Virus record (IMG/VR): IMGVR_UViG_3300031251_000099
Coordinates: 1 to 24,228 of that record
DNA length: 24,228 nt
Strand: one strand, 5' to 3'
Source: a virus
Shown: in pieces, positions 1,001 through 24,228 of the stretch
Numbering within the stretch: the first letter of the stretch is position 1
Layout: the number at the start of each line of letters is the position of its first letter
Notes under the pieces: model-generated
Told to the model about the DNA's origin: nothing
The model's database searches: none
The model's input: only the letters and a program-made list of their open reading frames with translations
Program-made: the position numbers and the translations under genes

Positions 1001-3046
1001 TTATAAAAAATTAAAGGGTAAGTTATCTGCAAGACTTTCTACCATTGTAAGGGTATTGCTGTTATCGGCATAATTAATACTAATTGCCATTGGTACTAAT
1101 TTTTTGCCACTTAGGTAAGTGTTGTATGTCAGGTAACCAAGATAACTTGGTACTAAGTTTACATCTGCTGTTAGCTTTACTGTTGGGTTCTGATAATTAC
1201 TTAAGTAAGAATTTAATAGAAGTTGTTCAATAGTTGCTGTGTTGCCATTACGTGTCCAGTTTGGCACAGGGTACATACCATCACTTATACTACCATACTG
1301 ACTTGGAAAACCAGTAGTATTAGTACCGTTTAAAAGTGTAATGGTTTGCCCATCATTCTTAGCCTTGGGGTCAAGATAACCTGTATATTCTACATCGGTT
1401 GTTGCTATGCTGTTGCCAAGGTTATCACTTATTTCAAGTTTTAAATCACTTATACGTATGTCTTTTACTGCTGCACTATAATCTGTGCCACCAATATCTT
1501 TATCACTGAAGACATATGCACCTGTAAGTAATACTTGCAAAGGACTGTTAAGCCAAGTATTCAAAGGCATTAGCTGAAAATCTACGTATTTTTTACTTGT
1601 ACTAAAGTATGCCTTGTTGTAAATCCACTGGTCACTTATTGGATTTGCAAATGTGTTATCATCATAATACGTAAGTTTAAATGTATTTAAATTTGTAAGG
1701 GTACTTGCTGAAGCTGTCCACATAAAGTTACCCCAAGTTTGATTATTACCACTTCTAAGAAGCAAGTATAATGCTGCATATTTAATGTTTGGGTTTGGGT
1801 TTTCTGTTGGGTCTGCTTCCCTTGTCTTTGTTCTGAAATAAGCCTTACAGCTTATCTTTATCCAATAACAATTATTTATACTAATGCTATTGGACATAAT
1901 AAAAGGTTTTACTTTAAAGTTCAAAGAACTTGTGGCAAAGTTTGTACCTGTTGCCAAGTACTTCATATAATAAGCACTACTTGAAGTATTAGTACTACCT
2001 GTGCCTTTCATCAGCGCAAAGAAGCCAATGCCACCATAATTAGCAGTTTTGCTTTGGTTATAATTATATTCTGTCCAGCCATACTGTGCATCTGCAACAG
2101 TTGTTAACCTACCTGTTTGGCTGCTGAAATCTGAACTACTTGCACTGAAATTATTAAGGGTATTCATATTGTAAGCACTATACTTAATAACTTCTTTGTT
2201 AATACTCGGTAATATTTCAAGCTGTTGATTATCTGTAAAGAATTTAATGGTACTTAAGTCACCAAGGTTAGTGGTAATGCTATCAGTACTGATATAAGCA
2301 TATGTACTACTGTTGAACTTCTTAAAACTTGCTGGTGATGTTAAGAGGGTGTTAAAATCATAGATAAACAAGCTACCTTGGTCTTGTACAATGCTTGCAC
2401 CATATGGTTGAAGTATTGCTTCAAGTACTTTTCTCAGTGTTTGTGGTACACCATCTTCATCATAAAAATTTTCACATATTCTATTGGACATATGTAAAAT
2501 AGTATTACTTGCAATGGTTGGAAGATTAGCAGCAGTAGTACTAAGACCTACGTATATGTAATTCCAAGGCAAGCCAAGTCTATTTAAGATTATTTGAAGT
2601 ATTTGCCATTCACTTTTTAAACCAGTGTATCTATTGCCAGCAGCATCTACAAAGTTCATACGTGACAATAGTGCAAAGCCATCATTAGCAGTAAAGCTAA
2701 CAGGGTAATTATTAATTGCATTAAAGTTTTCCCTGTATAATTCAGAATCTAAGTAACCTGTCCAAATCATACTACCATTTTTGGTAAGTTTTACCAAGTA
2801 GTGCAGCATATCATTTGTATAGAGGTTCATAAATTGTCTATCAGTAGTACTGATTAAATTAAGTGTTGCACCTGCTGCCCTAACTGCATCAAATTTTTTT
2901 GCTTCAGGATAATCAACTATAAAGGGGTTCTGGTCACCACGTATTTCTGTGTTAACTGTTGCGCCAGTGTAAAATAATTGCACTTGATAGCTATCATTAG
3001 CCACTTGGCTTTTGAAATTCATATAATATAAGTTATTCCAAGCCAT
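1001..3046 (-). CDS. Tail hub / distal tail protein
   Basis: This 681-residue protein lies between the tape measure gene (2 bp away) and the fibre gene (3 bp away). In siphoviruses this position holds the distal tail or tail-associated hub protein. It opens with MAWNNLYYMNFKS and continues with beta-rich sequence around residues 30-110 (TEIRGD, DAVRAAGATLNL, MIWTGYLDSELY). That pattern is typical of the large hub proteins of Bacteroidota phages, whose N-terminal half resembles the gpD/Dit-like hub fold. The rest is aromatic and Asn/Ser/Thr-rich with no enzyme motif that I recognise. It has only about three cysteines, in sharp contrast to the fibre downstream. The role is inferred from order and general character, and a receptor-binding or carbohydrate-binding role for the C-terminal half cannot be excluded. 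Confidence 0.7.
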   Translation of the reverse strand: MAWNNLYYMNFKSQVANDSYQVQLFYTGATVNTEIRGDQNPFIVDYPEAKKFDAVRAAGATLNLISTTDRQFMNLYTNDMLHYLVKLTKNGSMIWTGYLDSELYRENFNAINNYPVSFTANDGFALLSRMNFVDAAGNRYTGLKSEWQILQIILNRLGLPWNYIYVGLSTTAANLPTIASNTILHMSNRICENFYDEDGVPQTLRKVLEAILQPYGASIVQDQGSLFIYDFNTLLTSPASFKKFNSSTYAYISTDSITTNLGDLSTIKFFTDNQQLEILPSINKEVIKYSAYNMNTLNNFSASSSDFSSQTGRLTTVADAQYGWTEYNYNQSKTANYGGIGFFALMKGTGSTNTSSSAYYMKYLATGTNFATSSLNFKVKPFIMSNSISINNCYWIKISCKAYFRTKTREADPTENPNPNIKYAALYLLLRSGNNQTWGNFMWTASASTLTNLNTFKLTYYDDNTFANPISDQWIYNKAYFSTSKKYVDFQLMPLNTWLNSPLQVLLTGAYVFSDKDIGGTDYSAAVKDIRISDLKLEISDNLGNSIATTDVEYTGYLDPKAKNDGQTITLLNGTNTTGFPSQYGSISDGMYPVPNWTRNGNTATIEQLLLNSYLSNYQNPTVKLTADVNLVPSYLGYLTYNTYLSGKKLVPMAISINYADNSNTLTMVESLADNLPFNFL

Positions 3047-3048
3047 AA

Positions 3049-4734
3049 TTAAGATATTCTATTTATTCTATTATTATAATTTGAAAGTACACCAACAAGG
3101 CTTGTACCATCTATTTTAAAAGTTACTTGTCCACCACCCGCAACACCTGTATTTAATGATTTAAATAAGTTCTGTTGCTGTCCTTGGTTTAATATCATTT
3201 CACCAGCATTTACCCTTGCTAATTGGTGGTCACCAGAATAACTATTACCACCCATTATACCACCAGTACTGAACTTTGGAAGTTTAGACCACAAAGCCAT
3301 AACTACAGTAATACCAGCAGCAGCAGCAACAAGACCTGCAATACCTAATGTACCTTGGTTTGCAGGGTTCTTTGGGTTTAATGCATTAATAACACTGTTT
3401 GCAAGTGCTTGTGCAAGTAAACCCATAATTACTTTACGTATACCATCAAGCATATTTGTTACCATATCTTTAAAACTTGCTTTACCACCATTAGCCATAG
3501 CTATAAAAGCATCACTAATACTATCTAAAGCACCTGTAAATTCTTTTGCAACAAATTTTGCATCATTAATAGTATCTATCATTCTTTGAAAATAATCTAT
3601 ACCTTTTTGCATTTCCTTTTCAGGTGGCATTGGTAATGGTATTGCCTTTAAACTACTTGTATCAAGTTTACCAAAACCCTGACTTTTATCTATTGCATTT
3701 TGTGCTTTCCACCAATTTTTATCTGCTTCTATTTGCCTTTTATCTTTATCAATATATGCTTGTAGTTCTGCATCAAGTGCATCAAGACTTTCTGCTTTCT
3801 GTTGTTTAATTAAGTCAAGCTGTGCTTGTAATTCACCAGTTATTGCGTGATGTTTCTTATTAGTACTTGTCACTGCATCGGTATATTCAGCTTCAGCAGC
3901 ATTAATTTGAATCTGATAAGAATTATATTCTTTCATCAAATCATTTTTTTGCTGTACCTTCTTAATACCACCAGATTCAAGTACAAATTTTTGCTGCTCG
4001 TCTTTAATATGTTCTATTGTCAAGTCTTTGATGCTTTCCATCTTTTTACGGTATTCATCTAAAAACTTCATTCTTTCAGCAGCACTGTAAGTTTCCTTAT
4101 CAGTCATTTTTTCCTGTAATACACTGGCATCACGTTTAAGCGTGCTTATGTTCAATTCATAAGTAATGTTATCCTTACTCATTTTTATCATCAAGTCACT
4201 TAACTGCTTTGCAACTGCAAGGTTTTCTTTAAGTCTGTCAACAGCACCTGTAAATGCTTCTTTTGCACTGGCTGCTGCTCCGGCAAAGTCACCCTTGAAT
4301 AATTTTATAAGTGCTTCACCAAGCATTTTAAGTGTACCTAAAACTGTTTGTACCACTGCTTTTATAGCATTTATTGCACGTGTGAAAATATTACTACCTT
4401 CTTGACTTTTACTAAACCAAGTAACAAGGCTTACCAATGCTGCAACAATTGCCAGTAATGGTATTGCCAGCATTGCAGTTTTTAATGCACCCAAACTTGG
4501 AAGCATACCCATTATGCCTTTTCCAACACCACCAAAGCCTTGTGTAAGTTTAGTAAGTCCACCAAGCTGGTCTGTAAGGGGTTTGGTAAGTCCATTAAAT
4601 GCAGATTTTATACCATCAGTAGCACTTGCACTTGCGGTTTGCAGGTCTTTAGTCTTTGCTTTGGCTTTGTCTATGCCATCTGTGAAGCCAGCAGCATTAA
4701 GTGTTAAGGTTGTTAATAGGTCAAACTTTGCCAT
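3049..4734 (-). CDS. Tail tape measure protein
   Basis: The tape measure sets tail length and passes into the host envelope during DNA injection. The protein has 561 residues. The N-terminus (MAKFDLLTTLTLNAAGFTDG) has the usual tape-measure opening. A hydrophobic segment near residues 85-110 (MLAIPLLAIVAALVSLVTWF) could span a membrane, and long charged helices follow (about 160-350). A second hydrophobic stretch lies at about 460-485. The C-terminus carries the typical GGIMGGNSYSGDHQLARVNAGEMILN motif region. It contains no cysteine. At 561 residues it predicts a short tail, roughly 80 nm by the usual 1.5 angstrom per residue rule. It follows the frameshifted chaperone gene and has its own copy of the GTATTTATA motif 20 bp upstream. 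Confidence 0.92.
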   Translation of the reverse strand: MAKFDLLTTLTLNAAGFTDGIDKAKAKTKDLQTASASATDGIKSAFNGLTKPLTDQLGGLTKLTQGFGGVGKGIMGMLPSLGALKTAMLAIPLLAIVAALVSLVTWFSKSQEGSNIFTRAINAIKAVVQTVLGTLKMLGEALIKLFKGDFAGAAASAKEAFTGAVDRLKENLAVAKQLSDLMIKMSKDNITYELNISTLKRDASVLQEKMTDKETYSAAERMKFLDEYRKKMESIKDLTIEHIKDEQQKFVLESGGIKKVQQKNDLMKEYNSYQIQINAAEAEYTDAVTSTNKKHHAITGELQAQLDLIKQQKAESLDALDAELQAYIDKDKRQIEADKNWWKAQNAIDKSQGFGKLDTSSLKAIPLPMPPEKEMQKGIDYFQRMIDTINDAKFVAKEFTGALDSISDAFIAMANGGKASFKDMVTNMLDGIRKVIMGLLAQALANSVINALNPKNPANQGTLGIAGLVAAAAGITVVMALWSKLPKFSTGGIMGGNSYSGDHQLARVNAGEMILNQGQQQNLFKSLNTGVAGGGQVTFKIDGTSLVGVLSNYNNRINRIS

Positions 4735-4754: not shown

Positions 4755-4770
4755 CTTATAAATACAAAAA
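4755..4770 (-). promoter_or_regulatory. GTATTTATA motif before tape measure gene
   Basis: The minus strand reads TTTTTGTATTTATAAG, 20 bp before the ATG at 4734. It is an exact example of the motif repeated before many genes in this genome. It lies between the stop of the chaperone extension (4779) and the tape measure start. Confidence 0.6.
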
Positions 4771-4778
4771 ACCCTGCT

Positions 4779-5395
4779 TTAAATCAGTGGCAAGTATTCA
4801 CGGTATTCTGTAGGTTCTCTGAACATTTTAAGCAGGTCTTCTGCTGCCCTGTTACGTTCTTCCTTGCTTGGCTGTACTTCTTTATCATCCCAATTAAACT
4901 TAAGTACATCAGTTAATTTTAGGTGTTCACTCCAAGGTGCTGCGGTGTAATAGCACATAAGTCTTACCTGTTCCCAATTATCTTTATATTGTTGGTAATA
5001 CTGTTCTAATAGTGCTTCAAGTTCAAAGACTTCCATAGTATCAAGAAAGTACTGAGGTTGTACACCCATACTTACTACTATACCATAGATTGTTTTAATA
5101 CTTAGATTTTCTTTACTTTTTTTTTGCTCTGCTGTTCTGGCTTTACCAAGCTGTTAAAAAACTTTTCTACTTGGTCTTGATTGTCATCTATAAGGTCTAT
5201 AAATTCATCAAAGCTGTACTTGAAGGTTTCCTTATTAGCTGCCTTCAGTATGCAATACATCATAGCAAGCTGGTCTGATATTTTTTGACTTTCAGTATAT
5301 TGTTTGCCTTGCATTTCTTCAAAGTACATCAAGGCACGAAAACTTTGTTTTATTTGGTATTCCGTTTTACCAAGGGTAAATTTTAATTCATTCAT
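4779..5395 (-). CDS. Tail assembly chaperone, -1 frameshift fusion (gpGT-like)
   Basis: This is the extended product made if ribosomes slip back one base on the A9 run at 5117-5125. I translated the join: after the slip the frame reads SKENLSIKTIYGIVVS and enters the second frame (MGVQPQYFLD...) with no stop. The product is about 205 residues. The second frame alone (4779-5069, 96 residues) has an ATG but no GTATTTATA motif before it, and it lies just after the first stop (5102). In lambda-like siphoviruses the gpG/gpGT pair made this way coats the tape measure protein before tail tube assembly. Order (tail tube, G, GT, tape measure) matches that arrangement exactly. The frameshift is inferred, not shown. 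Independent initiation at 5069 is the alternative. Confidence 0.8.
5102..5395 (-). CDS. Tail assembly chaperone, unshifted product (gpG-like)
   Basis: This 97-residue acidic protein (MNELKFTLGKTEYQIKQSFR...) resembles the short tail assembly chaperones of siphoviruses by size, position and its helical, charged C-terminal half. It lies between the tail tube gene and the tape measure gene. It ends with a lysine run, KKKVKKI, encoded by the nine-A slippery stretch, followed by TAA at 5104-5102. A terminator at 5432-5470 and a GTATTTATA motif at 5412-5426 precede it, so it probably starts a separate transcript from the tail tube gene. The start at 5395 is the first ATG after that motif (16 bp). 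Confidence 0.8.
   Translation of the reverse strand: MNELKFTLGKTEYQIKQSFRALMYFEEMQGKQYTESQKISDQLAMMYCILKAANKETFKYSFDEFIDLIDDNQDQVEKFFNSLVKPEQQSKKKVKKI
5117..5125 (-). other. Slippery A9 run, probable -1 ribosomal frameshift site
   Basis: In the zero frame the codons are AAA AAA AAA GTA, so A_AAA_AAA_G provides a classic slippery heptamer. A -1 slip avoids the TAA 12 nt further on and joins the two chaperone frames. I did not identify a strong downstream stimulatory stem-loop. Confidence 0.8.
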
Positions 5396-5411: not shown

Positions 5412-5426
5412 CTATAAATACAAAAA
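5412..5426 (-). promoter_or_regulatory. GTATTTATA motif before tail chaperone gene
   Basis: The minus strand reads TTTTTGTATTTATAG, 16 bp before the ATG at 5395 and directly behind the terminator at 5432-5470. A promoter is what would be needed at this point. Confidence 0.65.
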
Positions 5427-5431
5427 GCAAT

Positions 5432-5470
5432 AAAAAAAAATAGGGTTGCTAAGTGTGAACCTAACAACCC
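5432..5470 (-). terminator. Rho-independent terminator after tail tube gene
   Basis: On the minus strand an 11-bp stem (GGGTTGTTAGG with CTTAGCAACCC, two G-U pairs, loop TTCACA) is followed by a run of nine T. It lies 38 bp past the stop of the tail tube gene, insulating that highly expressed gene from the chaperone genes. Confidence 0.88.
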
Positions 5471-5507
5471 CAAATACATAACAAAAAAACAGAAAAAAAG
5501 AAGAAAA

Positions 5508-5960
5508 TTATGCGAATGACAAAGCACCAGTACCAACTATGTTGGCTGTGTATGTTACGTCTGCACCATCTTGTGAATTAATACTAAGTGCTGTGATAAT
5601 TCCACAACCACTAAATTTATTAGTAGTACAGCTTGTCCAGTTTGGTGCTGAACCAGCAGCACTTGCAAAGGCTACGTTTACAATACATCGGTTGTTAAAA
5701 TAACCCCATAATTTATTAAAGTTATTGGTTGTACCTGTTGTACCATAATTGTAAAGCTGGTCACTACTTACAGACCAACTAAATTTAGCTGGTGTATTTT
5801 CATCCCAGTTACCACTATCCTTACTTGAAGTTTTTCTTGTACTAAGGTCTATTTTTAAATCAGCTTTTGTACTAAAAGCCATTGGCATTACTGCTGTTGC
5901 GCCTGAAGATGCAAATAACATCATCTGGCCACCATATACTACACAACTTGTTTGACTCAT
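5508..5960 (-). CDS. Major tail tube protein
   Basis: This 150-residue protein lies between the tail-completion protein and the tail chaperones, the standard place of the tail tube subunit. The sequence is beta-rich with few charges and opens with MSQTSCVVYGGQMMLFA. A central segment (STKADLKIDLSTRKTSSKDSG..W) resembles tube proteins of Bacteroidota siphoviruses, in which tagged lysine/serine-rich loops precede a tryptophan-containing strand. It has the signature of a strongly expressed structural gene: its own GTATTTATA motif 33 bp upstream, a leader closely similar to that of the major capsid gene, and a strong terminator behind. It contains several cysteines, unusual for a tube protein but far fewer than the fibre. 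Confidence 0.82.
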   Translation of the reverse strand: MSQTSCVVYGGQMMLFASSGATAVMPMAFSTKADLKIDLSTRKTSSKDSGNWDENTPAKFSWSVSSDQLYNYGTTGTTNNFNKLWGYFNNRCIVNVAFASAAGSAPNWTSCTTNKFSGCGIITALSINSQDGADVTYTANIVGTGALSFA

Positions 5961-5993: not shown

Positions 5994-6008
5994 TTATAAA
6001 TACAAAAA
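5994..6008 (-). promoter_or_regulatory. GTATTTATA motif before tail tube gene
   Basis: The minus strand reads TTTTTGTATTTATAA, 33 bp before the ATG at 5960. The 33-nt leader is very like that of the major capsid gene (AAAATAA..AG.AAAA...TTTAAA). Confidence 0.68.
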
Positions 6009-6040: not shown

Positions 6041-6412
6041 TTATACAACACTGTGTACTGTAAATTCAAGTTTCTGTGTAAAAATCTGGTCTGTTACTGT
6101 TTCTTCAATACTTGTAAGGTATATGTCTTTTATATTTATACCTGCATAAACACCACCAACCCTTGAAAGTGCATCAATAAGTTTACCACCAATGGTTATA
6201 CCTGTGCCATAATCAGCACTAAGTATATAAATGGTTACTACACTATCATAAGTGCAAGCATCACGTGTCCAGTTTACTGTACTACTTCTTTCAAAACCAA
6301 TAAAAGGTAATGGCGTATTTTCCGGTGCTTGTAATGGGTAAATTCTATTATTTACCAGTGTGTAAGTAGCACCACTGATAAGGGTAAATATGGCTTGGTT
6401 TAAATTAATCAT
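6041..6412 (-). CDS. Tail completion protein (DUF3168-like)
   Basis: This 123-residue protein starts with the hydrophobic helix MINLNQAIFTLISGATYTLVNNRIYPLQAPENTPLPFI. That opening and the 'iyp..ap..tplPfi' signature are typical of the DUF3168 / gp17-like tail completion family, which caps the tail tube at the head-tail interface. The central T/D-rich segment and 'IGGKLIDALSRVGG' fit the family's helix that follows the first beta strands. It lies between the HNH gene and the tail tube gene, with a GTATTTATA motif 14 bp upstream. The match is from recall of family pattern. Confidence 0.8.
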   Translation of the reverse strand: MINLNQAIFTLISGATYTLVNNRIYPLQAPENTPLPFIGFERSSTVNWTRDACTYDSVVTIYILSADYGTGITIGGKLIDALSRVGGVYAGINIKDIYLTSIEETVTDQIFTQKLEFTVHSVV

Positions 6413-6426
6413 ACTTCAAATATTTA

Positions 6427-6440
6427 CTTATAAATACAAA
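6427..6440 (-). promoter_or_regulatory. GTATTTATA motif before tail completion gene
   Basis: The minus strand reads TTTGTATTTATAAG, 14 bp before the ATG at 6412. It overlaps the final codons of the HNH gene, so in this one case the motif is partly coding. Confidence 0.6.
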
Positions 6441-7566: not shown

Positions 7567-7947
7567 TTATACTATATAAAAATTCTTATAAGGGTCAAGC
7601 AAAAACTTCAGTGTGTATGGTATTTCAACCCCTTGCGCAAAACTTACTATTTGTCTGTTCACATAAAGGTGCGCTGCAAGCAAGTATGTGCCTTGTACCA
7701 CAGCAATACTAACTTTACTGAATTTAGAATACGTATAACCTGACATAGTAACATTCATTGTTTTACCGGATAATATCAAAGTAATACCACTTTGTGTACC
7801 ACCTGTAACCATAACAAAGGGGTTACAATAACTTATTACTGCTGCTTCACTGGCATTTAAAATAGTTGTTAGTAAACTATCATCTGTAGTAAATGTTGGT
7901 TCTATATTTAGTTGCTGTTTTACTGCTGACAAGGTTGTGTAGTACAT
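7567..7947 (-). CDS. Head-tail connector (HK97 gp6-like)
   Basis: This 126-residue protein opens with MYYTTLSAVKQQLNIEPTFTTDDSLLTTILNASEAAVISYC. That is the standard pattern of gp6-like connectors: 'lsevK..L.i....dD..l...i..A...ve.y'. The C-terminus has a helical section (AVVQGTYLLAAHLYVNR) that also fits. The ring formed by this protein sits beneath the portal. It follows the major capsid gene, from which it is separated by a terminator, and it has its own GTATTTATA motif 19 bp upstream, so it starts the neck transcript. Confidence 0.85.
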   Translation of the reverse strand: MYYTTLSAVKQQLNIEPTFTTDDSLLTTILNASEAAVISYCNPFVMVTGGTQSGITLILSGKTMNVTMSGYTYSKFSKVSIAVVQGTYLLAAHLYVNRQIVSFAQGVEIPYTLKFLLDPYKNFYIV

Positions 7948-7966: not shown

Positions 7967-7982
7967 CTATAAATACAAAAAA
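7967..7982 (-). promoter_or_regulatory. GTATTTATA motif before connector gene
   Basis: The minus strand reads TTTTTTGTATTTATAG, 19 bp before the ATG at 7947. Its T run is also the T run of the capsid-gene terminator, so end and restart of transcription are fused at one site. Confidence 0.66.
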
Positions 7983-8007
7983 CCTCAGATAAAATATATC
8001 CGAGGTT
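7977..8007 (-). terminator. Rho-independent terminator after major capsid gene
   Basis: On the minus strand a stem (AACCTCgGATA with TATCtGAGGTT, one mismatch, five-base loop) is followed by TTTTTT. It lies about 50 bp past the capsid stop. Confidence 0.87.
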
Positions 8008-8055: not shown

Positions 8056-9303
8056 TTATTTCAAAGCTGCAAGTGCATAAGATACTGTACGTCTCCAAGC
8101 TGCATCAAAGTAAACATTAGCAATTATTCTGATGTTACCATTTACTGCTTGTGAATATGGGTCTACAGTTAAATCAATTCCACCCCATTGGCCAATAACT
8201 AAGTCACTGAAATCAGCAAACATAGTTGCTTTGGTTGAAGAACCTAATGAAGGCATATTAGAAGTTACAAGAGTCTTGTAGCCATTAACTGCACCATTAA
8301 CATCTTTGATGAAAATTGCTTGGTTACTTGCTTTTGCTGTGGTCTTCATAACACCATTGATTGAAGGGTGTACAAGATAAGCTGCTGTAGCCATATTGAT
8401 AGGTTTGTTTTGTGTTAATACATAAGATTCAAGACCTACGACATTTGCCCAAGTAGTTGTACCACTGATAAGGTTACCATTTGTACCACCTGCGGTAAAA
8501 GTTGTATTATAAAATACACCTGCTGGCTGTGTAGCTGTACCTGCTGCTGTTCCAAGAATAGTAGCTTCAAGTAATACCATAATTGCTTTCTGAATGTCAG
8601 CAACTAATAATGCTTCTGCACCAATACTGTCTTGTAACAAGAATCTTTTGCTTATATCAATGTAAGTAGTAATTCTTTTTGGTGATATATCTACTTTACT
8701 AAATGTACTTGCACCTGCTGTACTTGCGCCAGTTTCACTTGCCCAAGCTGCTGAACTACCAGCATAAATTGGGGTACTTCCATTGTTAACAAGTCCTGTT
8801 AAGAAGGTTGCACCAGCGTCTGCTAATACTGTACAAGCACGCAATGCGCCTAAAAGATTGAATTTCGTAATCTGAACAATTTCAGCACCATAGTTAGTAG
8901 TACCTGCGTTAATACCTGTACGGGTTTCAACTTCTTCTGTACCTACTGGTAATACTATTTGTCCTGTATATCCAAAACCTGATTTTCTCATTTCTTCCAT
9001 ACCAGCTTTAATAGTTGGGTGTGTAAGATAGTCCATACGACCTTCAGCAACTTCACGAACAGCTTTAAGTAAAGAAAATCTTTCTTCTTTTTGTCCATTG
9101 GTAATAACAGTTGCATTTCTTGCTTCCTGTACTTCAACTTTTTCAAGTTCTTTCTGTAATTCTTTATTGTCTGCTTTAAGGTTCTCTATTGTTATATTTT
9201 CAACAGCAGAAGCCTTGCGTTTTTCAACTTCAAGTAAATCAGAAATTTTTGCTATTTCTAATTCATTGGTTCTGATTTGATTTCTCAATTCTAACTTTGT
9301 CAT
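8056..9303 (-). CDS. Major capsid protein, HK97 fold
   Basis: This 415-residue protein has the two-part layout of HK97-type capsid precursors. Residues 1 to about 75 are a charged coiled coil (KLELRNQIRTNELEIAKISDLLEVEKRK...), the delta or scaffold domain, which the protease cut removes. The shell domain follows, with the family's features: 'RKSGFGYTGQIVLPVGTEEVETRTGINAGT', 'ILGTAAGTATQPAGVFYNTT', 'AYLVHPSINGVMKT' and the C-terminal 'IRIIANVYFDAAWRRTVSYALAALK'. The order portal, protease, capsid agrees. It has its own GTATTTATA motif 32 bp upstream and a terminator behind, as expected for the most abundant virion protein. Confidence 0.95.
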   Translation of the reverse strand: MTKLELRNQIRTNELEIAKISDLLEVEKRKASAVENITIENLKADNKELQKELEKVEVQEARNATVITNGQKEERFSLLKAVREVAEGRMDYLTHPTIKAGMEEMRKSGFGYTGQIVLPVGTEEVETRTGINAGTTNYGAEIVQITKFNLLGALRACTVLADAGATFLTGLVNNGSTPIYAGSSAAWASETGASTAGASTFSKVDISPKRITTYIDISKRFLLQDSIGAEALLVADIQKAIMVLLEATILGTAAGTATQPAGVFYNTTFTAGGTNGNLISGTTTWANVVGLESYVLTQNKPINMATAAYLVHPSINGVMKTTAKASNQAIFIKDVNGAVNGYKTLVTSNMPSLGSSTKATMFADFSDLVIGQWGGIDLTVDPYSQAVNGNIRIIANVYFDAAWRRTVSYALAALK

Positions 9304-9335: not shown

Positions 9336-9350
9336 CTTATAAATACAAAG
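9336..9350 (-). promoter_or_regulatory. GTATTTATA motif before major capsid gene
   Basis: The minus strand reads CTTTGTATTTATAAG, 32 bp before the ATG at 9303. It sits just upstream of the protease stop codon's intergenic gap and shares its leader type with the tail tube gene. Confidence 0.68.
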
Positions 9351-10014: not shown

Positions 10015-11346
10015 TTATTGTTTAGTACTACCACTGGTAGCAATAGTATTATTGTTTACAGGGGTTGTACCTGCTTTAATGTCGTTTAAATTATTATCCA
10101 AAGGCTGAATATTTTGATTTACAAAATGCCTGTTGCCACTTGGTACTGGATAATCACAGTCTAATGCCTGTCTGATTTCGTTTGTGCTGTAAACACCAAG
10201 ATTAAAGTACTTGGTAAATACGTCTGCTTGTGTACTTGCATCAAGTCTAAGTAAATTTGTAGTATCAAATTTTATCTTGGTGCTGCTGTAATCCACTGGC
10301 ATAACAATTTTTCTTGTTATTTCTGCTTCAATCTTTTCAATCAGTGGTAGTAAAGTATTATTTAAAAATTCTATTTGTTCTGCTTCATTGCCACCAGCAC
10401 TTGACTTAGGACTTAAGAAAAGTTTTGAAGGTGGTACACCAAAAAACTGTGCTACCTGTAAGGCTGAGTATTCACGTGATTCTATAAGCATACTGTCTTT
10501 CGGTGATGTTTGAATACTTTGATAATCAAAGCCACTATCCAATACTATCACTGAATTACCACCACTGTTAAGACCTGCATTTAAGTTAGTCAAGAATGCA
10601 TTCTTTGCACTACTGGCTTTATCTTGTGTAAGGTGGTTACCTGCTGAAGGTTTAATAACACCAGTTAAAATACCATTGCTACTAAAATAATTGTTGGCTT
10701 GTACTTCAGCACTGTAAGCTGTTCCAAGCACAAGGTTAGCATAGTTAAGTGTACTGATACCAACAAAATTATTTAAGCTAAAATTCATTATATGAATAAT
10801 ATCACTTTTATCAAATACCTGTGCATCTTGTACTGGCAGATTATAATAACTTGTTGCGTTCATTGCGTATTTAATGTCACCATTAACTGCAATAACATTT
10901 ATAGTGTTGGGGTCAAGTAGTACTAATTCGTTTACCTGTCCTTGTGAATCTCTACCTATTTTTATATAAGCATTACCATTAAGTAAAAGGTTTTGTACTG
11001 CCTGTTTCTTCAAGGTAAAGGCTGACATAAATTCATTTGGTGCAACATTTAATAAAGTATTTAGGGTGTTATCATTCTTATTCCACCAGTTACCCTTTTT
11101 ACTGTAATTAAAAATCGGCATAACTGCAATACTATCTGCAATAATGTTTACACTACGATTAACTACACTTAGTTTTAAAGACTTACTTACTGTATATGTA
11201 TCAAGGCTGCTGAAGTTCAAAGTACCGTATATAGGATTACTACTACTGAATTGCTGACTAAGTTCTGCACGCTGTTCTACTTCTTTATTAACATCAATTG
11301 TTGAATTTGTTGAAGTATTAAATATTCTTTGAAATATATTTGGCAT
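10015..11346 (-). CDS. Portal protein, HK97 family
   Basis: The portal forms the ring through which DNA enters and leaves the head. The sequence has the family's typical pieces: 'VNRSVNIIADSIAVMPIFNYSKKGN', 'LLNVAPNEFMSAFTLKKQAVQNLLLNGNAYIKIGRD', 'VLLDPNTINVI', 'IIHIMNFSLNNFVGISTLNYA' and 'VAQFFGVPPSKLF', the last being highly characteristic. I place the start at the ATG at 11346 (MPNIFQ, 443 residues). A GTG two codons earlier (11352) is possible. A GTATTTATA motif ends 12 bp before the chosen ATG. Confidence 0.94.
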   Translation of the reverse strand: MPNIFQRIFNTSTNSTIDVNKEVEQRAELSQQFSSSNPIYGTLNFSSLDTYTVSKSLKLSVVNRSVNIIADSIAVMPIFNYSKKGNWWNKNDNTLNTLLNVAPNEFMSAFTLKKQAVQNLLLNGNAYIKIGRDSQGQVNELVLLDPNTINVIAVNGDIKYAMNATSYYNLPVQDAQVFDKSDIIHIMNFSLNNFVGISTLNYANLVLGTAYSAEVQANNYFSSNGILTGVIKPSAGNHLTQDKASSAKNAFLTNLNAGLNSGGNSVIVLDSGFDYQSIQTSPKDSMLIESREYSALQVAQFFGVPPSKLFLSPKSSAGGNEAEQIEFLNNTLLPLIEKIEAEITRKIVMPVDYSSTKIKFDTTNLLRLDASTQADVFTKYFNLGVYSTNEIRQALDCDYPVPSGNRHFVNQNIQPLDNNLNDIKAGTTPVNNNTIATSGSTKQ

Positions 11347-11358
11347 AATCACGGTTTT

Positions 11359-11375
11359 CTTATAAATACAAAAAA
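11359..11375 (-). promoter_or_regulatory. GTATTTATA motif before portal gene
   Basis: The minus strand reads TTTTTTGTATTTATAAG, 12 bp before the ATG at 11346 and directly past the stop of the large terminase gene (11380). Confidence 0.66.
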
Positions 11376-14622: not shown

Positions 14623-14635
14623 TTATAAATACTAC
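14623..14635 (-). promoter_or_regulatory. GTATTTATA motif before small-gene run
   Basis: The minus strand reads GTAGTATTTATAA, 17 bp before the ATG at 14605. The part upstream of the core differs from the TTTTTG form. Confidence 0.5.
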
Positions 14636-14652: not shown

Positions 14653-15372
14653 TTATTCAACATTAAAAATAGTTGTACGTATATTCAATTGACTTGCAAT
14701 TGCTCGGTATTGAAGTAAACTATAACCTGTTTTTTCCATAAAATACTTGTTAAATCCGCTTTCTACAAAATCATTATCTATTAAGTACTGCCTTAAAAGC
14801 ACTAAAAAAATAGTCTTGGATTTATTCAGGATTTTTTGTTCTAACATTTTTCTGTCTATTTCTTCAATTATTTTTTCACGTATTTCTTCTTGAAGTATTG
14901 TTTTGTCTGCTGTTTCACTACTATCTAAGTAAATATTTTGGTCTTGGTTTGTGTCGGCATACTTGTAATTATGGTTGTCGCTGTAACCATAAATGTCTTT
15001 ACCATAGCTGTAATTTTGGTAATTAATATCTACTGGTATATTGCGTTTAAGCATTTCTTCGTGAATGACTTTCGTAATAAAATGGTTTTTAATGCCAAGG
15101 TACAAGTACTGCTGTGCTGCCTGTAATTTGGGTTGTTTAAGTCTTGGCAGAAGGTGTTGGTAGACGTGAATAATTATGTCTTGTCTAAAGTCTTCTGTAT
15201 TATACTTGGGGTTGTTGGCTTTAATACAGGTCTTAACAAGGTTTAATAAACTTGGGTACAACTTGGTAAAGCAAGATTGTCTTGTACTTGCACTTGTGGT
15301 ACTGGTATAACAGTAATAATATTTTTCTATTAGCTGTTGGTCTGTTGTTTTCCAAAGTCTATTATTTTCCAT
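14653..15372 (-). CDS. Sigma-70-like RNA polymerase factor
   Basis: The 239-residue product (start chosen at ATG 15372, MENNRLW; a longer frame begins at 15399) resembles a divergent sigma factor. Residues 36-74 (FTKLYPSLLNLVKTCIKANN, then NTEDFRQDIIIHVYQHL) match the helix pattern of region 2, in which 'DxEDlvQdvflkvw.hl' binds core polymerase. Residues 88-113 (QYLYLGIKNHFITKVIHEEM) match the next helix, 'wLy.iarN..id..R', that contacts the -10 DNA. After an acidic tyrosine/asparagine-rich linker, residues 200-232 could form a weak helix-turn-helix (TGYSLLQYRAIASQLNIR), a reduced region 4. It lies before the small-gene run and all late genes, the position for a late-transcription switch. It overlaps the gene upstream by 11 bp. 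A non-sigma helical regulator remains possible. Confidence 0.55.
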   Translation of the reverse strand: MENNRLWKTTDQQLIEKYYYCYTSTTSASTRQSCFTKLYPSLLNLVKTCIKANNPKYNTEDFRQDIIIHVYQHLLPRLKQPKLQAAQQYLYLGIKNHFITKVIHEEMLKRNIPVDINYQNYSYGKDIYGYSDNHNYKYADTNQDQNIYLDSSETADKTILQEEIREKIIEEIDRKMLEQKILNKSKTIFLVLLRQYLIDNDFVESGFNKYFMEKTGYSLLQYRAIASQLNIRTTIFNVE

Positions 15373-15841
15373 TGTAGTAAATTTTATCACGGTATTCAAT
15401 TTTATTAGCGTGCAGACTGCCTACCCATTTTTGAGTAATATAACCAGTACCCATAGTTGTACTTTTAAGCCATACTGGAAATACATAAAGTACTTCACTA
15501 CTACAATGCTCAAACCTACTTGAAATATCAAAGCTGATATAGCCATCAGGATAGAAGTTAAAATACAGTATAATTAACTTTGGGTCATTCTTAAGAAGTT
15601 CTTCAAAGTGCTGTAATTTGGTATCTTCAATCCAAGTATTGCCACTTATGTCTTTAAGTAGTAATTCACGTTCTTTAATTTCAATTGAATACCTATGACC
15701 AGTATTACCAGTAGCGTCTAAATCGTGGCTACAAAATAATGGCTTGTTTACTATCTTCTTGAAGTATTGTCTGAACATCTGAACAAATTGGCCACGTGTT
15801 CTTTCTTCTTGTAATTCAAATTCGTTTTTTTGGTTTTCCAT
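15362..15841 (-). CDS. Unknown protein upstream of sigma-like gene
   Basis: I take the start at ATG 15841 (MENQKNEFELQEERTRGQF, 159 residues), because a longer frame from 15886 would run through a GTATTTATA motif at 15855-15868. The N-terminus is charged and helical. The remainder alternates strands and short helices (RYSIEIKERELLLKDISGNTW, LIILYFNFYPDGYISFDIS, SEVLYVFPVWL). No family is recognised. It overlaps the sigma-like gene, so the two are co-expressed and may act together, for example as factor and co-factor. That link is inference only. Confidence 0.65.
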   Translation of the reverse strand: MENQKNEFELQEERTRGQFVQMFRQYFKKIVNKPLFCSHDLDATGNTGHRYSIEIKERELLLKDISGNTWIEDTKLQHFEELLKNDPKLIILYFNFYPDGYISFDISSRFEHCSSEVLYVFPVWLKSTTMGTGYITQKWVGSLHANKIEYRDKIYYNGK

Positions 15842-15854
15842 TTTAATAAGTTTT

Positions 15855-15868
15855 AAAATAAATACATC
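15855..15868 (-). promoter_or_regulatory. GTATTTATA-type motif before 15841 gene
   Basis: The minus strand reads GATGTATTTATTTT, 13 bp before ATG 15841. The core differs from the consensus in its last positions. It supports the shorter start of this gene and would make the sigma-like gene part of the same regulon. Confidence 0.45.
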
Positions 15869-15886
15869 AATATTTGGAAAAGTCAT

Positions 15887-17515: not shown

Positions 17516-17890
17516 TTATAATTTGGCTTTTACTTTAACTTCTTTAAATGTTTCTTGGAATAGTTTACCGTGTTCATCTTCAATTTCACCCAAAGCATTG
17601 CGTAATATATTGGTAAATGGTTCTGGTCTAAGTAATGCGTGCGCAACTTCGTGGCATATTATATCTTCAATCATACTATTTTTTAGTACTTCAACAGCAT
17701 AGGTTGTCATCTGTATTTGCTGTATATTATAGTTACAAGTACCCCAAGTATCAATAGTATCATTATATTCAAATGTCCAATCCTCGTTCAATGCATTACC
17801 ATACCTACCACAAATTTTTAAATTATTGATACCTAATATATGGTTTGCTCTGCGTTTCCATTTTAATAATCTTGCTTCCATTGTTTTCAT
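17516..17890 (-). CDS. SprT-like zinc metallopeptidase
   Basis: This 124-residue protein matches the SprT-like/Spartan-type fold in compact form. It has the zinc-binding motif HEVAH (in DIICHEVAHALL, about residues 80-84) and a third ligand histidine in 'DEHGKLFQE', preceded by a YGN..W segment typical of the family. In cells Spartan proteins cut proteins cross-linked to DNA. Phages carry SprT-like genes with no settled role. It is the first leftward gene of the replication operon, with a GTATTTATA motif (GGTG form) 28 bp upstream. Start at 17890 or 17881 cannot be decided, and the difference is three residues. Confidence 0.85.
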   Translation of the reverse strand: MKTMEARLLKWKRRANHILGINNLKICGRYGNALNEDWTFEYNDTIDTWGTCNYNIQQIQMTTYAVEVLKNSMIEDIICHEVAHALLRPEPFTNILRNALGEIEDEHGKLFQETFKEVKVKAKL

Positions 17891-17918: not shown

Positions 17919-17933
17919 TTATAAATACACCAG
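17919..17933 (-). promoter_or_regulatory. GTATTTATA motif before leftward replication operon
   Basis: The minus strand reads CTGGTGTATTTATAA, 28 bp before ATG 17890. It is the GGTG form of the motif, shared with the two rightward copies at 18310 and 18922. Confidence 0.58.
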
Positions 17934-18236: not shown

Positions 18237-18267
18237 TTGTATATATAATATAGGTGTACTATCTTTG
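18237..18267 (+). promoter_or_regulatory. Bacteroidota-type promoter for winged-helix gene
   Basis: TTG at 18237-18239 is followed, after 20 bp, by TATCTTTG at 18260-18267. This matches the -33 (TTTG-like) and -7 (TAnnTTTG) elements of the main sigma factor of Bacteroidota. It lies about 75 bp before the ATG at 18341. Confidence 0.65.
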
Positions 18268-18288: not shown

Positions 18289-18321
18289 AAAAATGGAAAA
18301 TGGAAAATTCCGGTGTATTTA
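18289..18321 (+). repeat. 33-bp direct repeat, copy 1 (with GTGTATTTA motif)
   Basis: The copy is identical over 33 bp to 18901-18933: A-rich AAAAATGGAAAATGG, then AAAATTCCGGTGTATTTA. It ends 19 bp before ATG 18341. Its right end is the GTGTATTTA core of the genome's leader motif, so the repeat may be a duplicated promoter unit. It could also encode a 9-residue leader peptide (MENGKFRCI). Confidence 0.9.
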
Positions 18322-18340
18322 GAAGAAAAGAAGGAAGAAA

Positions 18341-18886
18341 ATGACAGCAGTAGAATTTAACAATAGGTATCAAGAACTAAACGCCAAGCTAACAAAGACA
18401 GGCTTGCTGGTGTTAAATTACTTTATTAATACTCCGGCAAACCTCAGTAAAAATCAGAAGCAAATAGCAGCAGACCTTGGCAAGTGCCGTGTTACTATTA
18501 ATAGAAGTATAGCAGCATTAGTAGAAGGTGGTTATATTGAATATAGTAGTAAATTTGCTTCAAATAGATACTTGAAACAAAATGTTACACCTAACTTAGA
18601 AGCTGCGCCAATAGAAGATAAACCAGAATGGGTAATAGTAGAATATCCAGACGAAGTATTACCAGAAGCCAACATAGAAAACTACAAGGAAATAATTAAG
18701 CATTTTAGAAGTAATGGCAGCGGGAATTATGAAAATTATCTTGCTGAATTTCCACACCACTATGATGCAGTCTATAAATATTATTATGATAAAGGTTATA
18801 TTAATATTGATAGTAAAAAAATGAATATTTGGAAGTTTTTCCATTTTGGTGATAAGCGTAAACATTATATGGGAGAATTAGCATAA
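18341..18886 (+). CDS. Winged-helix transcription or replication regulator
   Basis: This 181-residue protein is the main rightward gene. Residues 14-75 form a winged helix. A first helix (LTKTGLLVLNYFINTP) is followed by 'SKNQKQIAADLGKCRVTINRSIAALVEGGYIEYSSKF', the recognition helix and wing of the MarR/Crp-like type. A later segment (about 120-181) is charged, with many tyrosines, and resembles nothing known to me. Divergent from the lytic genes and probably expressed from a host-type promoter, it is the best candidate for the phage repressor. A host-directed regulator or replication protein is not excluded. The leader GAAGAAAAGAAGGAAGAAA is purine-rich. Confidence 0.65.
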   Translation: MTAVEFNNRYQELNAKLTKTGLLVLNYFINTPANLSKNQKQIAADLGKCRVTINRSIAALVEGGYIEYSSKFASNRYLKQNVTPNLEAAPIEDKPEWVIVEYPDEVLPEANIENYKEIIKHFRSNGSGNYENYLAEFPHHYDAVYKYYYDKGYINIDSKKMNIWKFFHFGDKRKHYMGELA

Positions 18887-18900
18887 AATAAATATTGTCT

Positions 18901-18933
18901 AAAAATGGAAAATGGAAAATTCCGGTGTATTTA
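18901..18933 (+). repeat. 33-bp direct repeat, copy 2 (with GTGTATTTATA motif)
   Basis: This is the second exact copy, 15 bp after the stop of the winged-helix gene. It extends into TATATGGG, so the complete motif CCGGTGTATTTATA lies at 18922-18935. It stands before the structured RNA region and the exported protein gene. Confidence 0.9.
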
Positions 18934-18936
18934 TAT

Positions 18937-21720: not shown

Positions 21721-21951
21721 TTAACTATTTTTTATTTTATCAACCTTGGCAAAAAACTTTGCAAATGCTTTTCTACTTCTTATATGTTGTCCAAGCCATT
21801 CACAGCTTATTTTTATCAAGTAACCTATAACAGCACCACAGGCTGCATAAATCATTGCGTTTTCTAATTGTGTTGTAAATATTGTGCCTAATGCACCACC
21901 AATAACTGGTAGATGTTCACGGATATTATTAATAAGTGTTTCAAGTAACAT
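21721..21951 (-). CDS. Small membrane protein, possible holin
   Basis: The start is taken at ATG 21951 (MLLETLINNI, 76 residues), since the earlier ATG at 21966 lies within the GTATTTATA motif, and the new start is 13 bp past it, like other genes. Hydrophobic residues run from about 15 to 45 (LPVIGGALGTIFTTQ, then MIYAACGAVIGYLIKI), giving two membrane segments, followed by a basic tail (GQHIRSRKAFAKFFAKVDKIKNS). This layout is common for small holins. It follows the fibre gene, where lysis genes are often found. Confidence 0.6.
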   Translation of the reverse strand: MLLETLINNIREHLPVIGGALGTIFTTQLENAMIYAACGAVIGYLIKISCEWLGQHIRSRKAFAKFFAKVDKIKNS

Positions 21952-21964
21952 AGATATTCTTTTC

Positions 21965-21978
21965 ATATAAATACAAAA
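21965..21978 (-). promoter_or_regulatory. GTATTTATA motif before membrane protein pair
   Basis: The minus strand reads TTTTGTATTTATAT, 13 bp before ATG 21951. It overlaps an upstream ATG (21966), which is therefore unlikely to be used. Confidence 0.62.
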
Positions 21979-22008: not shown

Positions 22009-24228
22009 TTATTTACTGATATTATTTAAGCAGGTCTTCAGGTCAATTATACAGCAAGTAAGTTCTTGCAAACCCTTTACCAAGTAAGGAATTAGTGCAG
22101 TATCAGTAATACCATATTTATCTGCTTCTTCATCATAATTTACAAATTTACAGATGTTCAAAGGCTGTGCTTGTTGTGCAATAAATCCTATTTGGTTGGT
22201 GTTGGTTGTGTCACCTGTCCAGACATAATTACTTACTTGCAAACTATTCAAAGTATCTAATGCACTTATACTTGTTGATTGAATACAGCATTTATAACGA
22301 CAATCAGAAGTGCTTACAAATTGCATTGTACCAGCATTATTAATAATACAGCCAACTACAGAAGGTGTATTATTATAAAATTTTACAAAAATATGGCATA
22401 AAGTTGTTTGTGTTGCACAACCTGCTTGTAAACTAAGTGCTGGTGTATTATTTGATAATGTTGTATTTTGAATACACATTAAACCATTACCACTATTTTG
22501 GTTTGCACACACAATAACACTGCCTGTATTGGTAATTGGTGTTAAGTAAATATTACAACTGGTCATTGCTATACAGCAAGAACTATTAACACAGGTGCAA
22601 CAATTTGTTAATTGTGTATTTGTACCGCATATTAATGTACCAGTTGTGCAAAGGGTTGTACAAGTACCACAAGATGCAAGACAACCATAAGCAGTACTGG
22701 TACAGCTTGTAGGGTCATATCTAAAATAGTTGGTGGTATTAAATACTGATTGCAAGCCACAGCTACCAATTTCTGTTACTCCAACACTACCAACTAAAGC
22801 AAGGCAATTTTCTTGAATTCTGGTGTTAACAGTAAGTGCACAGCTACCATAGCTATTACCACAAACAAAATATTTACCACCAGAATAGCAATACAAGGTG
22901 CAAACCTGCTGTTGGTATGCACTATTTGCAATACTATAGCAAGTTGTCATATATACAGCAGGATTTGTTATACAAACGCTTTGTGCAGGTATAACACAAA
23001 TAACATTATTATCTGAATAACCTTGATTTGGTGTATAGTTGCTACTTGACCAACAATTAGTAATTAATGGATTATTCAGACAATCATAAAGTACTGTTGT
23101 ACCATTTACAACATAAGTACCACATCGGTTATAATTAATACAGTAGCAGCAAGCAGTTTTGCAGTCAATATTGGCACATAAACTGTAATCTGTGTTAACC
23201 TTTATACTGGCCTGTACCACATAATTTTTAGCACCTGTAATAGTTAAATTTTTACTTGCCTGACAAGTTGCATAATAACTTAAACAAGCATTATTGGCTG
23301 CTGTAGTCTGTTGATAATAATCAAGAAAATTTGAAGTAGTTGCAACAGCAATAGTATGCATAGTACCAGCAGCACAAGCCAATGGAATACTAACACAACT
23401 TGCACCAACTATTTGTGCAATACTTGACAAACCACAGTTTTTTAAACTTATTTTTTCTGTACCTGTAGCATCTGCAATACTTATACAGTTATTATTAAGT
23501 GTAATATATGCATTATTCAATGATTGATTACTAATACAGTAACCAGCAATGCAACCACAAGTACTGTTAATTGTACCTGTTAAATAAGCATTGGTGCTGT
23601 ATAAACCATAACCATTAGCACCACTAATACCATCAAGTGAACCAAGTCTAACAACTTCCATTGCTGGTGTAATTGTTGTAGAATTTACACCATTATAAAC
23701 TTTAAGTGATGAACCGCAATAAGGGGTAAGGTACATCATAGACTGCCTTGCAGTATTTGTAGTGTTACCAAGTCTTACAAAAGGCATTTGGCTTGCACAA
23801 ATACCAGAAGCATTTTCATTTATATAAACCCTATTATTACGTGTATCTGCACTATATACTGTATATGTGTAACTGTAAACATTTGTGCACTGCATAGACT
23901 GTGCACGTATTATATCATTTGGTGCAAATGTCATATCACTACAACTTTGAAAATAATATTTACCATTACTTCCAAGTGTGAAGCCTGACAAGCCACACAT
24001 ACTATCAGTTATTACAAGGTCACCGTTACTTGCTTTAGTTTGGTTTATTATAAAAGTTTGTGCACAAAGATTTTCACGAACACTTAGGTTATCAATTTCG
24101 AGGTTGTAATTATTGCTTGCGTCTTTCCATAGCTTGTAGCCATTGCCAAGCCATCCTGATGTATATGCAATACTATTTGATACTTGTGTATCTGTGCAAA
24201 GACAACCACTAAGTAATGCTGTACCTGC
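22009..24228 (-). CDS. Cysteine-rich tail fibre with S74 chaperone, C-terminal part
   Basis: This is the continuation of the gene that starts at 997. It is open from the right edge of the window to the stop at 22009; the stretch 24102-24228 duplicates 1-127. It is not a separate gene starting at the internal ATG 24000. The final 99 residues (22009-22308) are an intramolecular chaperone of the peptidase S74 family: 'SDCRYKCCI' (where SDRRxKxxI is usual, with the self-cleaving serine), 'IGFIAQQAQPL', 'ALIPYLVKGLQEL' and a last helix. This domain helps the fibre trimer fold and then cuts itself off. The rest is beta-rich with some 55 cysteines in the last 663 residues, about one in twelve. Confidence 0.9.
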   Translation of the reverse strand, partial: AGTALLSGCLCTDTQVSNSIAYTSGWLGNGYKLWKDASNNYNLEIDNLSVRENLCAQTFIINQTKASNGDLVITDSMCGLSGFTLGSNGKYYFQSCSDMTFAPNDIIRAQSMQCTNVYSYTYTVYSADTRNNRVYINENASGICASQMPFVRLGNTTNTARQSMMYLTPYCGSSLKVYNGVNSTTITPAMEVVRLGSLDGISGANGYGLYSTNAYLTGTINSTCGCIAGYCISNQSLNNAYITLNNNCISIADATGTEKISLKNCGLSSIAQIVGASCVSIPLACAAGTMHTIAVATTSNFLDYYQQTTAANNACLSYYATCQASKNLTITGAKNYVVQASIKVNTDYSLCANIDCKTACCYCINYNRCGTYVVNGTTVLYDCLNNPLITNCWSSSNYTPNQGYSDNNVICVIPAQSVCITNPAVYMTTCYSIANSAYQQQVCTLYCYSGGKYFVCGNSYGSCALTVNTRIQENCLALVGSVGVTEIGSCGLQSVFNTTNYFRYDPTSCTSTAYGCLASCGTCTTLCTTGTLICGTNTQLTNCCTCVNSSCCIAMTSCNIYLTPITNTGSVIVCANQNSGNGLMCIQNTTLSNNTPALSLQAGCATQTTLCHIFVKFYNNTPSVVGCIINNAGTMQFVSTSDCRYKCCIQSTSISALDTLNSLQVSNYVWTGDTTNTNQIGFIAQQAQPLNICKFVNYDEEADKYGITDTALIPYLVKGLQELTCCIIDLKTCLNNISK
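24102..24228. repeat. Terminal overlap of circular contig, right copy
   Basis: This is an exact second copy of 1-127. It should be removed before the genome is circularised. Confidence 0.95.

Follow-up and report, generated by a model that had tools for sequence, protein, structure and literature searches.

A highly diverged ECF-like sigma factor as the probable reader of a late promoter motif in a small phage and its relatives

The window analysed here, which is the whole of virus record IMGVR_UViG_3300031251_000099 (24,228 nucleotides), has a probable promoter word, GTATTTATAnnAAA, that precedes its late genes, and the question raised by the gene at 14653–15372 (minus strand) is whether its 239-residue product is the factor that reads this word. 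The initial annotation had proposed such a pairing between a protein resembling a divergent sigma-70 region 2 and a 16-bp motif listed at 13 places. Both ends of the record overlap by exactly 127 bases, as expected after assembly of a circular genome of ~24.1 kb. The GC content is 33%, and phage-family matches among the structural genes comprise the terminase, portal, head maturation protease, major head protein and tape measure; an integrase is also encoded, which makes the phage probably temperate. The window thus probably represents the complete circle of a small, temperate siphovirus of Bacteroidota, the host being inferred from a related prophage (L065) that lies inside a Bacteroidales genome and points to Bacteroidota hosts for the window's kin. 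The record further encodes an unusually cysteine-rich tail-fibre-like protein (22009–24000, minus strand; 55 cysteines in 664 codons), whose frame crosses the ends of the circular record.

The 16-mer TTTTTGTATTTATAAG turned out to be over-specified: the window holds only two exact copies of it and eight places with up to three mismatches (3.2 expected), and its T-run, which is not conserved in relatives, is in part the U-tract of terminators ending there. Its core was nevertheless located at all 13 listed places, within ~5 bp and on the strands claimed. The exact 9-mer GTATTTATA is found at 11 places in the window (expectation 1.02; 0 of 100 shuffles reached this count), ten times on the minus strand, which is that of the late genes, and once on the plus strand. 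On the minus strand the core precedes the tape-measure gene 3049–4734 (core at 4757–4765), gene 5102–5395 (5413–5421, with a terminator hairpin at 5441–5472 in front), the tail-tube-like gene 5508–5960 (5995–6003), gene 6041–6412 (6429–6437), gene 7567–7947 (7968–7976, directly behind the terminator hairpin ACCTCGGATATATTTTATCTGAGGT at 7982–8006, whose T-tract extends into the motif), the major head protein gene 8056–9303 (9338–9346) and the portal gene 10015–11352 (11361–11369), the last two at the same positions in relatives. The first core of the late module, GTATTTATA at 14624–14632, stands directly behind the stop codon of the sigma-like gene. On the minus strand GTATTTATA is also found upstream of this module, before gene 17516–17890 (17920–17928); another copy precedes gene 21721–21951 (21966–21974), and the variant GTATTTATT at 15857–15865 precedes the sigma-like gene and the gene in front of it. 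On the plus strand the rightward gene 18341–18886 has the variant GTATTTAGA (18315–18323) in its leader; the leader sequence occurs twice, and its second copy contains GTATTTATA at 18927–18935, with no long reading frame behind it before 19061. This leader, taaaaatggaaaatggaaaattccggtgtattta, is ~34 bp long, and its two almost identical copies lie at 18290–18323 and 18901–18935, before and behind the rightward gene; it is possibly an operator.

Two gene starts were moved. The motif at 21966 overlaps the ATG of the longest reading frame there, so that translation probably begins at the ATG at 21951; the motif at 15857 falls within the longest frame (15362–15886), whose start is therefore probably the ATG at 15841, the more so as the L065 homologue of this gene (49% identical) aligns only from query residue 23 on. 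After these corrections the 9-mer ends about 14–34 nt before the ATG (12–33 bp in nearly all cases in the initial annotation), with the exception of the copy at 18927, which lacks a nearby frame. Three copies had been claimed to restart transcription behind terminators or gene ends; the window shows two clear terminator hairpins in such a place, and 30 were found across relatives.

The sigma-like protein, P0001, is strongly diverged. Searches with its single sequence (Pfam, PHROGs, PDB, phage tblastn, viral contigs) yielded nothing usable, and its match to TIGR02937 (sigma70-ECF; E = 6e-4, residues 35–231), at 19.4 bits against a curated cut-off of 42.9, does not pass that cut-off; alone, P0001 stays below every curated family cut-off. 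Usable matches came only from profiles of its family, which has 12 members. Four of the 12 match Sig70_bacteroi1 (NCBIfam, TIGR02985; best 1.4e-4), three match TIGR02937 and two match Sigma70_r2 directly (best 0.0038). Searched against 395 genomes of the same class, the family profile retrieved 13 further chromosomal Bacteroidota proteins (E from 3.6e-8 to 1e-6). Five of these were examined, and each is an ordinary ECF sigma factor with Pfam Sigma70_r2 and r4_2 domains. The only PDB sequence match is ECF SigL (E = 0.007), and three family members used as queries found no homologue in 50,697 phage records. In the predicted structure (mean pLDDT 72) a flexible linker connects the sigma-2 helices to C-terminal helices (residues 155–236), for which there is no separate structural match to region 4. 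The Foldseek list contains mostly sigma factors, the best match being to an isolated region 2, 4lup_C (target TM 0.76, rmsd 3.0, prob 0.92), followed by 2o7g_B (target TM 0.65, prob 0.90), and the modelled region 2 resembles that of sigma-E. Given E-values of 1.3–1.4 for these two matches, and none below 0.001 in the list, which is probably due to the flexibly joined domains, the fold agreement is of moderate strength; a second model, of the shorter homologue from L018, gave weaker fold matches than P0001. The profile search and structure prediction suggested in the initial annotation thus uncovered homology to sigma-70 region 2 through the family profile and a sigma-E-like region 2 fold, and the sigma-like assignment is strongly supported.

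The closest kin of P0001 are the Bacteroidota ECF sigma factors (TIGR02985, TIGR02937), with which it shares profile homology over region 2, weakening towards the end of the protein, and the layout of region 2, linker and C-terminal helices, with neither sigma-1 nor sigma-3 found. It differs from them in its divergence below the curated cut-offs, its long flexible linker and apparently reduced region 4, and its location in a phage beside late genes, where no anti-sigma partner was noticed. A further difference is seen in two relatives (L010:1–900 and L018:36–848), whose sigma-like proteins carry a C-terminal extension matching the I-HmuI-like NUMOD DNA-binding domain (Pfam PF22083, best 3e-9). 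In L096 a stop codon divides the sigma gene (2557–3132) into two adjacent frames, which reflects either a sequencing error or a broken gene; the late motifs of this phage are nevertheless intact.

About 30 related contigs were gathered by terminase, portal and sigma searches, and roughly twelve uncultivated relatives share the pair of sigma-like gene and motif. Fourteen contigs span the region immediately ahead of the terminase genes and the late module, and 13 of them encode a member of the sigma family there (window, L010, L014, L015, L018, L065, L161 (=L019), L087 (=L070), L088, L092, L094 (=L072), L096 and L163), and in the window, L014 and L019 a copy of the motif stands directly behind its stop codon. 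This neighbourhood and co-occurrence suggest the pairing, within one clade and not as many independent events. In the window the sigma gene is preceded by gene 15362–15841 (minus strand), which overlaps its start by 11 nt and is thus probably co-transcribed with it; the L065 homologue likewise lies immediately upstream of its sigma gene. In both phages, if not in every relative, the sigma gene is the second gene behind a copy of the motif, an arrangement that suggests positive feedback, possibly through the motif at 15857.

The motif itself is kept before the same genes of the relatives, namely those for the portal, the major head protein, the gene after the latter and tail proteins, in genomes that range from 27% to 50% GC. 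Word counting free of prior assumptions, carried out over the relatives' leaders as had been proposed, ranked GTATTTA among the most enriched pre-gene words in each of 13 related phages separately. The pooled set comprises 107 sites at most 60 nt from a same-strand gene start in 26 related contigs; a further 51 sites lie inside genes and 28 elsewhere, while leaders make up ~4% of the space. Relatives carry CGTATTTA or AAGTATTTA, without TTTG. When the base before the motif was compared with the sigma tree, one supported subclade agreed; the same group appears in the terminase tree, so the agreement is not independent evidence for co-evolution of sigma factor and motif. The motif is absent from the more distant terminase relatives, including outgroups of similar composition. 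At corresponding places one of these, L157, has GTCTATATA (728, 2666, 3900, 5995, 8233), and L164 (4362, 7134, 14974) and L166 have another recurrent word, CATAAATA; these words often stand behind terminators, as if each lineage had its own promoter word. L157, L164 and L166 show no sigma gene, and the contigs of L157 and L166 end just upstream of the terminase region.

According to the initial annotation, the same motif in related phages without the gene would refute the pairing, and one such phage exists. G001 (L069+L009), the nearest relative by terminase, is a complete circle, since its contig ends overlap by 127 bases, and it has the motif before at least nine genes; it contains neither a homologue of the sigma gene (unfiltered hmmsearch; hhalign across 92 reading frames) nor another sigma-like protein (Pfam and NCBIfam searches of the non-structural genes). 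G001 may receive the sigma factor in trans, may have replaced it with a protein that is unrelated or unrecognisable, or may depend on a different reader of the motif. The last would mean that the late promoter is real and is served by a host alternative sigma factor, or by a phage activator together with the host sigma, while the sigma-like protein has a different role, e.g. the redirection of host genes; Bacteroidota genomes do encode many ECF sigma factors. Against such a reader stands the distribution of GTATTTATANNAAA in the 4-Mb genome that hosts the L065 prophage, where nine of the ten copies lie within the prophage, on one strand. With a single copy outside, the motif is not a host promoter type, and this possibility was rejected. 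Moreover, the sigma gene is the only regulator-like gene found at its place in the 13 of 14 contigs, and no alternative reader common to all the phages was found, G001 and most relatives having essentially only structural genes in common. Another reader is therefore unlikely in our estimate, and the reading by the phage-encoded ECF-like sigma factor (14653–15372) is the probable one; it is on account of G001 that we do not put it more firmly. The early module of G001 is unrelated to that of the window. In a speculative scenario, which we consider rather unlikely, these phages domesticated a host ECF sigma factor as a late switch, and G001-like members lost the gene and now borrow the factor; if this were true, they would take it from a co-resident prophage or another phage, a form of sigma piracy.

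Whether the motif is a promoter at all can be judged from its anatomy. The 107 leader sites give the core consensus GTATTTA[T/A]A(A/T)nAAA and, upstream of it, a nearly pure A/T block at -15 to -13, with G or C at -15 in only 4 of the 107 sites (background 31%, p = 1e-12). In GC-rich relatives (n = 16, some blocks overlapping the end of the preceding gene) the upstream block approximates T...A.AWTT at -22 to -13, and its distance from the core, ~21 bp from centre to centre, is near the spacing of -35 and -10 elements. A terminator hairpin lies just upstream of 30 of the 107 motif sites, compared with 6 of 302 motif-free genes (Fisher p = 6e-14) and 23 of 1560 random positions. Downstream of a terminator, transcription has to start anew; what those gaps have in common is this word, which points to restart promoters. 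The position of the motif 11–41 nt before start codons in the pooled leaders, and the use of A-rich leaders for initiation in Bacteroidota (PMC6847099), would also fit a signal acting in RNA, for translation initiation or mRNA processing, with no promoter involved. However, the distance to the start codon varies while the spacing of A/T block, core and AAA is fixed (in 23 of 30 far sites the AAA keeps its distance from the core, not from the start codon), operon-internal genes lack the motif, and terminators precede the motif far more often than they precede other genes. The fixed internal spacing led us to reject a translation signal, and a role in RNA is altogether very improbable. That AT-rich DNA (33% GC) simply yields TATTTATA-like words, of which those before genes were picked out, might be suspected from the mild enrichment of the full 16-mer, but chance is excluded for practical purposes by the shuffles, the per-phage word enrichment and the leader-site counts together, as well as by the retention of the word before the same genes at 27–50% GC and its lack in outgroups of similar composition. 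Conservation in relatives, adjacency to terminators and near-absence from a host genome thus strongly support the promoter reading, and the motif very probably represents a phage-specific class of late promoters.

Comparison with known systems sets this class apart from the Bacteroidota housekeeping promoter, which has a -33 TTTG and a -7 TAnnTTTG element (PMC6847099). As the initial annotation had stated, the late motif is not of this form: the site alignment lacks the TA of TAnnTTTG, and the conserved core lies downstream of any TTTG. The contrasting class is represented in the window by the -7 element TATCTTTG (18260–18267, plus strand), through which the early rightward gene probably uses a promoter of the host type. 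The window contains 27 copies of the host -7 element TANNTTTG, fewer than the 46.8 of shuffled sequence, and the phage possibly avoids it. The analogy with T4 gp55 drawn in the initial annotation holds for the concept of a sigma-like phage protein serving late genes in many short units, and for a dominant -10-like element of the TATA type followed by A/T-rich DNA. It does not extend to the details: late promoters of T4 lack a -35 element and require gp33 and the clamp (PMC2988020), while P0001 looks ECF-like, with a sigma-4-like C-terminal part, and the promoters found here show a -35-like block, though a weak one. Foldseek matched the model only weakly to gp55 (7d7c, prob 0.47). Reverse-complementing the core TATTTATA gives the T4 word TATAAATA, in the opposite orientation to the genes; what stands in gene orientation is GTATTTATA with upstream blocks, and a T4-type late promoter on the other strand (TATAAATAC) was rejected since the genes behind the motif run the opposite way. 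In its working the system may be likened to the sigma switching of SPO1, and Xpf of PBSX, a prophage sigma factor, belongs to the self-activating sigma systems of prophages and plasmids. SigN of plasmid pBS32 is likewise a mobile-element sigma factor that switches on a regulon and its own gene, with positive feedback demonstrated (PMC6751061). Unlike the window phage, SigN and Xpf belong to Firmicutes, and the comparison concerns organisation.

The following mechanism may be envisaged. The early control region would be served by a promoter that is probably of the host type. Host core RNA polymerase, bound by the phage-encoded, highly diverged ECF-type sigma factor, would then transcribe the late genes: region 2 would read and melt GTATTTA[T/A]A(A/T)nAAA as a -10-like element, and a putative, reduced region 4 may contact the A/T-rich -35-like block 13–22 bp upstream. 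Both the binding of P0001 to core polymerase and its recognition of the motif are predictions. We infer the timing as well as the transcription start, which would lie about 5–8 nt downstream of the core. Encoded behind its own copy of the promoter, the sigma factor would reinforce its own expression in the window phage, and then activate a series of short late units. Several of these are closed by a terminator, behind which a new copy of the motif would restart transcription.

How phages of Bacteroidota control their late genes has received little study, and no description of a phage sigma factor for this phylum turned up in our literature searches. A compact pair of sigma factor and promoter, nearly silent in the host genome, would offer a testable model of host ECF sigma factors captured by phages, and would provide an orthogonal promoter system for work in Bacteroides. 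Moreover, one DNA word allows the late genes of many metagenomic phages to be recognised.
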